Below are positions 31,113 to 33,756 of a stretch of DNA of 64,000 nucleotides, piece after piece. Both the position numbers and the translations under genes were made by a program. This DNA is from Hylemonella gracilis (lineage in GTDB: Bacteria > Pseudomonadota > Gammaproteobacteria > Burkholderiales > Burkholderiaceae_C): the NCBI RefSeq assembly GCF_004328645.1, contig NZ_CP031395.1:707501-771500 (forward strand), in the 5' to 3' direction. The first letter of the stretch is position 1. The number at the start of each line of letters is the position of its first letter. The notes under the pieces are model-generated. The model ran no database searches, was not told where the DNA came from, and saw only the letters and a program-made list of their open reading frames with translations.

Positions 31113-31517
31113 TCAGTAGCTGCGGCGCCCGCCGCCGCCATTGCCGCCGCGGGGGTTGCCATAGGGGCTGCGGAAGCCACCATCACCGCCGCCATCGCCA
31201 TAACCACCGCCGCCGCCTTCACGGCGGGGACCGCCGAAACCACCGCCGCCGCTGCGAGGCGGGCGGGGCTCCATTGGCCGGGCTTCATTGACCACCACGT
31301 TGCGGCCGCTCAAGGGCTGACCGTTCAAGCCGTTGATGGCGGCCTGTGCCTCGGCATCGCTGCCCATTTCGACGAAGCCGAAACCCTTGGAGCGACCGGT
31401 GTCGCGCTCCATCATGACCTTGGCGCTGGTGACGGCACCGAACTGGCCGAAAGCCTGTTCGAGATCATTGTCACGAATCGAATAGGCCAGATTGCCCACG
31501 TAAAGTTTGTTGCCCAT
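31113..31517 (-). CDS. RRM glycine-rich RNA-binding protein
   Basis: A 134-residue protein with one RNA recognition motif (about residues 3-80): RNP2 is LYVGNL and RNP1 is KGFGFVEM. The C-terminal 50 residues are Gly/Arg-rich with GGGG and RRS blocks. Such small RRM proteins in bacteria are often cold-inducible RNA chaperones. A good ribosome site (AGGAG) precedes the start but lies next to a hairpin in the leader. The gene stands alone and has its own terminator. Confidence 0.96.
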   Translation of the reverse strand: MGNKLYVGNLAYSIRDNDLEQAFGQFGAVTSAKVMMERDTGRSKGFGFVEMGSDAEAQAAINGLNGQPLSGRNVVVNEARPMEPRPPRSGGGGFGGPRREGGGGGYGDGGGDGGFRSPYGNPRGGNGGGGRRSY

Positions 31518-31874: not shown

Positions 31875-31880
31875 TATACT
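31875..31880 (+). promoter_or_regulatory. Likely -10 element of metX
   Basis: TATACT lies 6 bases before the first base of the aptamer stem (31887), placing transcription start at or just before the riboswitch. No convincing -35 is seen upstream at 17-18 bases. Confidence 0.5.
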
Positions 31881-31886
31881 TGGGAA

Positions 31887-31965
31887 AGCGCCGATTTGAT
31901 CCCGATTGCGGGCGCTGGAACCGGAACCATATGGGCTGGTTCCAAAGTTCAGCTAAAGAAGGGGG
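31887..31965 (+). promoter_or_regulatory. SAM-II-like riboswitch aptamer upstream of metX
   Basis: P1 is AGCGCC (31887-31892) and GGCGCT (31911-31916). The P1 loop holds GATTTGATCCCGATTGC, and the 3' part has CAAAG (31943-31947), AGCTAAA (31951-31957) and GGGGG (31961-31965). The UCCC of the loop can pair with the 3' GGGG and the UUU with AAA, giving the SAM-II pseudoknot. The conserved GAUUU, AUUGC and AGCUAAA elements are all present. An extra hairpin (GGAACC and GGTTCC, 31917-31943) sits between P1 and the AAA segment. It should sense S-adenosylmethionine. Confidence 0.82.
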
Positions 31966-31980
31966 CTTTCTGTGCATAGA

Positions 31981-32020
31981 AACCCGGCTCGGCTGAATGC
32001 TGTGCCGGGTTTTGTGTTTT
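31981..32020 (+). terminator. Intrinsic terminator in the metX leader
   Basis: AACCCGGC (31981-31988) pairs with GCCGGGTT (32004-32011), an inner CGGC pairs with GCTG, and TTGTGTTTT follows. It lies 16 bases after the SAM-II-like aptamer and 13 bases before the metX start, so SAM probably promotes transcription termination. It also rules out the upstream frame start at 31997. Confidence 0.78.
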
Positions 32021-32032
32021 CCGACGTTTTCG

Positions 32033-33178
32033 ATGCTGATCGCCCAGTCCCAAACCATGTACTTTGACGCCGCTTTGGCTTTGCAAAGCGGTGCCAGCAT
32101 CCGCGGCTACAGCCTGAGCTACGAGACCTATGGCCAGCTCAACGCCGATAGATCCAATGCCGTCCTGATTTGCCACGCGCTCAACGCTTCGCACCACGTC
32201 GCTGGTGTCTACGCCGGGCAGCCCGGCACCGAAGGATGGTGGGACAACATGATTGGCCCGGGCAAGCCGGTGGATACGGACAAGTTCTTCGTGATCGGCG
32301 TCAACAACCTGGGATCCTGCTTCGGCTCGACAGGGCCCATGCACGTGAACCCTGACACTGGCAAGGTCTATGGCGCGGACTTTCCCGTCGTGACGGTCGA
32401 AGACTGGGTCAACGCGCAGGCGCGTCTGCTCGACACACTGGGCATCGGCCAATTGGCCGCGGTCATGGGCGGCAGCCTGGGTGGCATGCAGGCCCTGAGC
32501 TGGGCCCTCCAATACCCCGATCGCATGCGGCATGCGGTGGTGATCGCCAGTGCGCCGAACCTGAATGCCGAAAACATCGCCTTCAACGAAGTGGCGCGCC
32601 GCGCCATCGTGACCGATCCGGACTTTCATGGCGGCCACTTCTACGAACAGGGCGTGATACCCAAGCGAGGCCTGCGGATCGCCCGCATGATTGGGCACAT
32701 CACTTACCTGAGCGACGATGTGATGAACGAGAAGTTTGGACGCGAACTGCGCGGTGCCGTGGACGGCACCGCCAGGGCGGGTTACCAGTACAGCACGCAG
32801 GACATCGAATTCCAGATCGAGAGTTACCTGCGCTACCAGGGCGATAAATTCAGCGACTACTTCGACGCCAACACCTACCTCTTGATCACCCGCGCGCTGG
32901 ACTATTTCGACCCGGCGCGCCAGCATGGTGGCAAGCTCACAGCGGCTTTGGCCGCGGCGAGTTGTCAATTCCTGCTGGTGAGTTTCTCGACTGACTGGCG
33001 TTTTTCACCCGCACGCAGTCGGGAGATCGTCAAGGCCCTGCTCGACAACCGGCGTGACGTCAGCTATGCCGAAATCGATGCCCCGCACGGGCACGATGCT
33101 TTCTTGCTGGATGACCCCCGCTACTTGGGCGTGGTGCGGTCTTACTTCGACAACATGGCGAAGGAGCCGCGGACATGA
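32033..33178 (+). CDS. metX: Homoserine O-acyltransferase MetX
   Basis: An alpha/beta hydrolase-fold acyltransferase of about 381 residues, first step of methionine synthesis from homoserine. The nucleophile is in [10 protein letters not shown]; the early [17 protein letters not shown] and the late [11 protein letters not shown] (catalytic Asp and His region) are family signatures. Beta- and gammaproteobacterial MetX enzymes often use succinyl-CoA; acetyl or succinyl cannot be told here. The start at 32033 ([12 protein letters not shown]) follows the leader terminator. The stop overlaps metW by four bases. Confidence 0.95.
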
Positions 33179-33756
33179 GCGACACACGCATGCTGGAAGC
33201 GATCGCCAGCCTGGTTCCACCAGGTTCGCGGGTGCTGGATCTGGGCTGCGGGGACGGCGCGCTGCTGGCCCATTTGCAGGCTGAACGGCGCTGCAGCGGA
33301 TATGGCGTGGAACTGGATGATGCCAACGTGCAGGCCTGCGTGCGGCGCGGCGTCAACGTCATCCAGTTGAACCTGGATCAGGGCCTGTCGATGTTTGGGG
33401 ACCAGAGTTTCGACGTGGTGCTGCAGATCGACACCCTGCAGCATCTGCGCAATGCCGAAACCGTGCTGCAGGAGACGGCACGCGTGGGTCGCACTGGCAT
33501 CGTGGCGTTTCCCAATTTTGCGCATTGGCCGAACCGGCTGAGCGTGCTGGCGGGGCGCATGCCGGTCACCCGTCGCCTGCCCTACCAGTGGTACGACACG
33601 CCCAACATCCGTGTCGGTACCCTGTCCGATCTGGAGGTCCTGGCCCATCGGATTGGCTTGCGCATCCAGGACTGCTTTGGCCTGCACCATGGCCGGGTGG
33701 TGCGGTGCTGGCCCAACCTGAGGGCTAGCACGGCGGTGTTGAAATTTTCGCGCTGA
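33175..33756 (+). CDS. metW: Methionine biosynthesis protein MetW
   Basis: A 193-residue class I SAM-dependent methyltransferase-like protein with [15 protein letters not shown] at about residues 20-34 and the later [19 protein letters not shown] and [18 protein letters not shown]. MetW occurs coupled to metX in many Proteobacteria and supports MetX activity; its own reaction is unclear. Its ATG overlaps the metX stop, so the same leader controls both. Confidence 0.95.

Follow-up and report, generated by a model that had tools for sequence, protein, structure and literature searches.

Is the leader of metX in the analysed window (a 64,000-nt stretch of Hylemonella gracilis DNA, numbered from its first letter) a SAM-II riboswitch although a hairpin has been inserted into it, and how would it act on the genes behind it? 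Comparison with related leaders and predicted folds suggest that it is very probably a SAM-sensing switch of the SAM-II kind that has gained a hairpin. We give a probability of roughly 85% to the reading that this putative SAM-II element, with its linker replaced by a hairpin, controls metX-metW by transcription attenuation.

Organization of the metX leader

The leader is flanked upstream by a gene for an RNA-binding protein on the minus strand (31113-31517) and downstream by the plus-strand genes metX (32033..33178; homoserine O-succinyltransferase type, NF047916, 651.8 bits against a cut-off of 560) and metW (33175..33756; TIGR02081, 237.6 bits, cut-off 189.5). The probable metX start is ATG 32033, conserved among relatives; the start given in the list of open reading frames, 31997, falls within the terminator. 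All features of the leader lie on the plus strand. The sequence-only reading had placed transcription start at the aptamer on account of a -10 hexamer, which we find as TATACT (31875..31880), predicting a start at the foot of the stem P1, at about 31887. P1 comprises 6 bp between AGCGCC (31887..31892) and GGCGCU (GGCGCT in the DNA, 31911..31916), both recognized in the sequence and in the match of R1, a covariance model made from 109 uninserted relatives, and the former also in alignments of relatives. Between them lies the 18-nt loop L1 (GATTTGATCCCGATTGCG, 31893..31910) with GAUUU, CCC (31901-31903) and AUUGC (31905-31909), which contains the 5' strand of the P2 pseudoknot (RF00521 12.2 bits, R1 35.0 bits).

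Behind P1, a 27-nt inserted hairpin (31917..31943) takes the place where P1 is usually joined to AAA by a linker of 4 nt. The P2 3' strand, AAAGUUCA-GCUAAA-GAAGGGGG (31944..31965; a weak R1 match of 11.8 bits), includes AAA (31944-31946), GTTCA (31947-31951), GCTAAA (31952-31957) and GGGGG (31961-31965). According to prefix folds and an alignment of the genus, positions 31947-31954 double as the 5' strand of a predicted antiterminator (31947..31998), in which they pair with 31991-31998 and in which 31963-31965 pair with 31983-31985. The terminator before metX that the sequence-only reading had also noticed is present as an intrinsic terminator (31979..32020) with the stem 31979-31988/32004-32013 (-23.9 kcal/mol) and a T-rich tract to about 32020. 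The region 31880-32025 folds with z = -3.95, much of which comes from the insert and the terminator. A pattern scan of the window reported neither the TATACT promoter nor the metX terminator, because its promoter pattern includes a -35 hexamer and its terminator pattern a loop of 3-8. No second copy of the element was found within the window.

Conservation of related leaders

Matches to the DNA of the leader were obtained in 37 of 100 relatives, and the pattern CGATTTN{5,13}TTGCGGGCGC occurs in 231 of 299 family genomes, with 0 for a reversed-pattern control among the matches listed. From 200 loci (188 yielded an element, 12 none) we extracted 174 distinct elements with a pattern that demanded [GA]ATTT, TTGC, GCTAAA and a pairable P1 (four or more pairs, among them the three innermost), so that conservation of these core letters is partly imposed; since the elements are related, their counts are not independent. 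A TANNNT hexamer ends at most 14 nt from P1 in 148 of 173 elements, compared to 6 of 173 when the search interval is shifted 20 nt upstream, and TATACT is the commonest -10 hexamer (67). The five inner pairs of P1 form in 174 of 174 elements and the outermost in 101. RF00521 matches from other classes carry a different P1 (CGTGGT/GCCACG), hence P1 covaries between classes. GAUUU, UUGC and GCUAAA have identical letters in the RF00521 elements of other classes, and this core is present in the window. Pairing of UUGC with GCUAA is possible in all aligned rows, yet invariant, and the P2 core yields no covariation because it never varies. The outer P2 helix was rejected as covariation support, own and swapped strands giving the same value (2.59 versus 2.58, no signal).

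The linker from P1 to GCTAAA measures 11 nt in 116 of the 174 elements, 12-14 nt in 10, 5 nt in three and at least 23 nt in 45. For RF00521 matches from other classes of the phylum, presumably Alphaproteobacteria, it was 11 nt in all 25 that were parsed (30 fetched), and for order loci over the RF00521 cut-off 11-14 nt in all 25 parsed (26 fetched). The nearest assigned downstream gene is metX in 144 elements, metZ in 15, metH in five, metN in three, metK in one and none in six (n = 174), so methionine or SAM genes stand behind 168 of 174, with metX-metW in the window. L070, counted under metZ, is better named a cystathionine gamma-synthase family protein. Three minimal SAM-II-like elements with the 5-nt linker (L069, L079, L086) precede ABC transporters, for which MetN is the best NCBIfam match, under its cut-off. 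A threonine ammonia-lyase gene follows the SAM-II-like element of L072, and the proteins behind the SAM-II-like leaders L050, L068 and L083 are without a Pfam match.

Relation to SAM-II

RF00521 (SAM_alpha) scores 12.2 bits on the window, over 31887-31916 only, against a cut-off of 36, and no Rfam family exceeds its gathering cut-off anywhere in the window. The covariance-model check that went with the sequence-only reading thus comes out against SAM-II for the window sequence itself, whereas the order of segments claimed there (P1, GAUUU, AUUGC, AAA, GCUAAA and a G-run) is borne out by the sequence and by R1. This model finds the window element in two pieces which flank the insert and lie in order. 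The 31887-31916 piece (35.0 bits) is the top match genome-wide, with E 1.5e-6; the 31944-31965 piece is weak alone (11.8 bits; E 0.24 for 37 sources and 5.9 for the genome). The next-best R1 match in the genome is an element before metK (19.2 bits, E 0.046), and the remainder have E of at least 0.39.

Scores over the RF00521 cut-off were obtained for 26 of 150 order genomes versus 0 of 14 control genomes; at E ≤ 1, matches appeared in 117 of 150 order genomes and also in 7 of the 14 controls, none of the latter over the cut-off. Two uninserted elements that precede metX in the family of the window pass, L027 with 38.4 and L057 with 36.2 bits. Among ten loci searched at gathering scores, L032 and L040 from other families also pass, and the uninserted family member L108 and the inserted L029, L065 and L150 fail. 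Two further uninserted family relatives are under the cut-off (G152 with 23.3 and G192 with 28.5 bits), and six additional loci, four with inserts, gave no RF00521 match at E ≤ 0.5. The insert as sole cause of the Rfam miss was rejected, some uninserted family members being missed as well; it lowers the RF00521 score, and so does sequence drift. Membership in RF01726 (SAM-II long loops), a SAM-II variant by name and by its listing in the accessible text of Weinberg 2010, was rejected, with 0 of 41 genomes over the cut-off and no match in the window.

The SAM-II reading was kept because uninserted family relatives pass RF00521 and R1 finds the window, and we take the window element as a putative SAM-II aptamer by descent, despite a score below the Rfam threshold. 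It resembles RF00521 in the order of P1, GAUUU, UUGC and GCUAAA, in its terminator and methionine genes, and in the 11-nt linker of most uninserted relatives, but differs in the 27-nt linker hairpin, the sub-cut-off score and a short, unsupported outer P2.

The inserted hairpin

The insert folds as a hairpin in 45 of 45 elements, compared to 0 of 129 short linkers. These hairpins start 0-2 nt after P1, the weakest (-1.4 kcal/mol) being that of L175. In the 24-nt insert class (18 aligned sequences), each of the 90 stem cells is paired, with two-sided changes at three of the five pairs; its covariation score, which refers to the whole counted structure, was reached by 0 of 500 shuffles. Within the window's family, inserts were found under 13 genus codes; five further families (f3, f8, f23, f31, f32) have inserts of dissimilar sequence. 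A search with the insert pattern returned 39 matching stretches, 36 of them from Hylemonella, Curvibacter, Limnohabitans or other Comamonadaceae, Burkholderiaceae or Burkholderiales. The Comamonadaceae-type element of L231, which is labelled Akkermansia muciniphila, probably comes from a mislabelled or mis-binned genome. The insert is a lineage variant of SAM-II, not a one-off.

A MetX tree of 141 rows, 39 with the insert, was made by a quick method. A single origin of the insert was considered and not adopted: the trait needs at least 12 changes on this tree, but well-supported branches force only one. The hairpins of the five other families are unlike, suggesting several origins, and a recurrent origin of the insert is likely rather than proved. 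Beginning right after P1, the hairpin would probably stack coaxially on it; it may serve as a spacer or stabiliser and would leave the binding core intact.

Terminator and predicted antiterminator

A terminator-like hairpin with dG ≤ -15 stands behind 159 of 174 elements, versus 25, 27 and 29 in dinucleotide shuffles of the downstream sequence; at the looser dG ≤ -8 the count is 164 of 174 versus 72, 72 and 63. The sequence-only reading had called both the extra hairpin and the terminator unusual. The first holds in the sense of a lineage trait; the second does not, a terminator being not unusual for SAM-II, and the accessible text of Corbino 2005 (PMC1273637) describes putative terminators on many SAM-II RNAs. 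No terminator hairpin was detected at -8 in ten elements. L143 among them appears by eye to have been missed by the detector, and in six others of the ten (L020, L022, L023, L040, L054, L111) AGG or GAGG and an ATG are seen by eye right after GCUAAA, for which reason translation control probably exists in the family. Three of these six elements come from genomes that carry the genus code of the window.

The longest Watson-Crick helix between the P2 3' strand and its own terminator is 5.40 versus 4.29 for shuffled sequences (164 elements, p < 0.05 in 33). The control, the P1 5' strand, gave 4.55 versus 4.48 (p < 0.05 in 7 of 164). L1 is near chance (5.00 versus 4.89; p < 0.05 in 11 of 164), with pairing of 8-10 bp in a few loci; as a general antiterminator strand it was rejected, this role holding for some loci only. 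Duplex energies against swapped terminators are weak and noisy, the advantage of own terminators being 1.99 kcal/mol with the P2 3' strand and 0.07 kcal/mol with L1. The candidate partners are GUUCAGC:GCUGAAC in the window's genus (not significant alone), GCUAAA:UUUAGC in many members of the window's family (each alone not significant), UGCCGCUA:UAGCGGCA in L027 and UCAGCUUGCG:CGCAAGCUGA in L029, L032, L036 and L041. The window's own antiterminator helix, taken alone, has 6 bp and p 0.11, which is not significant. Judged from these sequences, predicted antiterminator complementarity is present across relatives, with partners that change between lineages.

When the segment that runs from the P2 3' strand up to the loop of the terminator is folded, z averages -1.82 across 164 elements. 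In 99 of 164 this fold occupies four or more bases of the terminator 5' arm and also four or more of the P2 3' strand, a count without a shuffled control. Window prefixes to 31998 and 32003 fold as the antiterminator (-44.0 and -44.2 kcal/mol); other structures are predicted for the prefixes to 31965, 31978, 31990, 32010 and 32020, of which those to 32010 and 32020 contain the terminator and lack P1. The unconstrained full leader likewise forms the terminator with P1 absent, in a nested folding program that cannot show a pseudoknot. When the P2 strands are reserved, the 32003 prefix rises to -32.1 kcal/mol, a 12 kcal/mol gap that excludes the energy of the pseudoknot and of SAM. Across 16 members of the genus, the outer antiterminator helix is 99.2% paired and mostly invariant and the terminator stem 96.0% paired; the alignment holds two two-sided changes in the whole structure, a number which 18 of 500 shuffles reach.

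These folds are compatible with the following mechanism. SAM bound in the P1/P2 pseudoknot would hold the P2 3' strand (GCUAAA...GGG), barring GUUCAGCU from GGCUGAAU and GGG from the CCC of the terminator 5' arm. With the antiterminator blocked, the terminator would form and metX would be off. When SAM is absent, the P2 3' strand would make the antiterminator and RNA polymerase would read through. The window element would accordingly have SAM as its ligand, be off at high SAM and make use of its antiterminator.

Alternative explanations

It is unlikely that the RNA binds SAM in front of a constitutive terminator and exerts control via translation or RNA stability. Such an arrangement resembles S. 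meliloti metA, whose terminator is not predicted to respond to SAM in the accessible text of Scheuer 2022, and six of the ten elements in which no terminator hairpin was detected, those with ribosome-site-like motifs, fit it too. Against it, the P2 3' strand tends toward terminator complementarity across relatives, and the window's G-run cannot be the ribosome site of ATG 32033, since about 70 nt separate the two. That the fold is SAM-II-like but responds to a different compound, for instance SAH or methionine, is still less probable in view of the letter identity of GAUUU, UUGC and GCUAAA with RF00521 elements of other classes and of the methionine or SAM genes behind nearly all elements. The closest prior description leaves the ligand open in its accessible text (Leyn 2014, PMC4239095), whereas SAM binding has been shown for the SAM-II class (accessible text of Corbino 2005).

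The Rfam label RF02424 (Bp2_287) of a Burkholderia homologue would instead make the leader a trans-acting or antisense small RNA, a reading to which we attach very little weight. In the accessible text of Khoo 2012 (PMC3521395), the sRNA Bp2_Cand287 was validated by RT-PCR, lies before methionine genes in most genomes and was itself proposed to be cis-acting, with a role tied to methionine. It shares the locus type, before metX or metZ, and its top-scoring locus L061 has an insert of its own; the difference is that the Rfam sRNA family is built on the antisense strand. RF02424, whose cut-off is 70, gives 18.4 bits on the window, on the opposite strand, and 107.5 bits at L061, likewise opposite the SAM-II core. 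Such a core lies opposite the RF02424 strand in 28 of 30 loci (27 tagged by script, plus L070, where the locus ends early; L089 and L090 are without a core). What RF02424 describes is the strand complementary to the SAM-II leader of metX or metZ.

A divergent element before metK

Elsewhere in the genome from which the window comes, a SAM-II-like RNA that has diverged lies directly before metK on the minus strand (G000 C1:1673273-1673336; loci L271 and L305). Its layout is GUCGCY-GAGUUA...AACUUGCAG-GGCGAC, a linker and then GCUAAAGCGUUCGCC, with GAGUU (GAGUUA) in place of the SAM-II GAUUU. Its GUUCGCC could pair with GGCGAAC in the metK start region, and in many copies GCUCC could pair with the ribosome site GGAG. 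The DNA of this element matched 49 of 80 relatives, with a query that reached 26 nt into metK; part of these matches extend over the 3' portion only. P1 pairs in all 15 distinct sequences, and two pairs are changed on both sides.

R2, a model of this element from 16 sequences, gave matches at E ≤ 0.01 in 138 of 250 genomes of the order, weaker-scoring canonical SAM-II elements included. At E ≤ 0.001 it matched 22 of 185 genomes of the class, of which two belong to the family of the window. Ten newly fetched class loci comprised several canonical SAM-II elements before metZ-like genes, and L338 before metK. Among 40 R2 loci, metK is directly behind in 19 and two tandem cores occur in 10. For the metK element itself Rfam gave no match, whether for L271 at E ≤ 5, for 20 loci searched with gathering scores or for 11 of the 20 at E ≤ 0.1. 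Neighbours of the metK-type element include a SAM-I/IV aptamer (L331, with a single core beside it), a canonical SAM-II (L318) and a weak SAM-II match (L334); in genomes other than the window's, the metK-type element stands behind a canonical SAM-II or a SAM-I/IV aptamer. We consider it somewhat more probable than otherwise that the metK element belongs to the SAM-II superfamily as an aptamer not described before, which works on translation and possibly has a changed specificity.

Tandem SAM-II-like cores share one leader in L311-L313, L318, L320, L321, L328, L329, L334 and L337, and several of the tandem-core leaders precede small proteins starting MYDC. In L287-L297, L299, L301 and L302, P1 of the metK element is followed by an insert that folds, within a linker of 52-67 nt; this post-P1 insert in the window's relatives parallels the metX insert.

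Discussion

The metX leader as a probable SAM-II element with an inserted hairpin, likely acting by attenuation, brings together several earlier descriptions. In its accessible text, Leyn 2014 reports a novel 'metXZ' RNA element with a pseudoknot and a terminator in 35 beta-proteobacterial genomes, its ligand unnamed, and confines SAM_alpha to Rhizobiales and Rhodobacterales. The elements studied here likewise stand before metXW or metZ in beta-proteobacteria and have a terminator. They share with metXZ the genes, taxa, pseudoknot and terminator/antiterminator; metXZ, however, was held apart from SAM-II, with another pairing proposed and no insert mentioned in that text. From genes, taxa and architecture, metXZ is almost certainly the window's element. 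Bordetella bronchiseptica is named in an alignment legend of Corbino 2005. For the S. meliloti metZ SAM-II, the accessible text of Scheuer 2022 predicts SAM-dependent termination, a likeness to the window element, and reports the RZ sRNA to be up at high SAM; no inserted hairpin is described there.

Neither Leyn 2014 nor Khoo 2012, in their accessible texts, tied their element to SAM-II. The open-access literature, with few subscription journals covered, yielded in its accessible parts no link of metXZ or of Burkholderiales leaders to SAM-II, no inserted hairpin in SAM-II and no Burkholderiales metK element. The SAM-II link of metXZ and RF02424, the insert as a lineage variant, the predicted change of antiterminator partners and the candidate metK element are new.

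An orphan methionine element of beta-proteobacteria thereby gains a likely ligand, and descriptions that had been named separately are joined. The results also show how copies that have diverged or carry an insert escape the Rfam model. The family represents a natural experiment, in which elements with and without the hairpin, termination versus probable translation platforms and varied putative antiterminator partners are combined with one near-invariant core.
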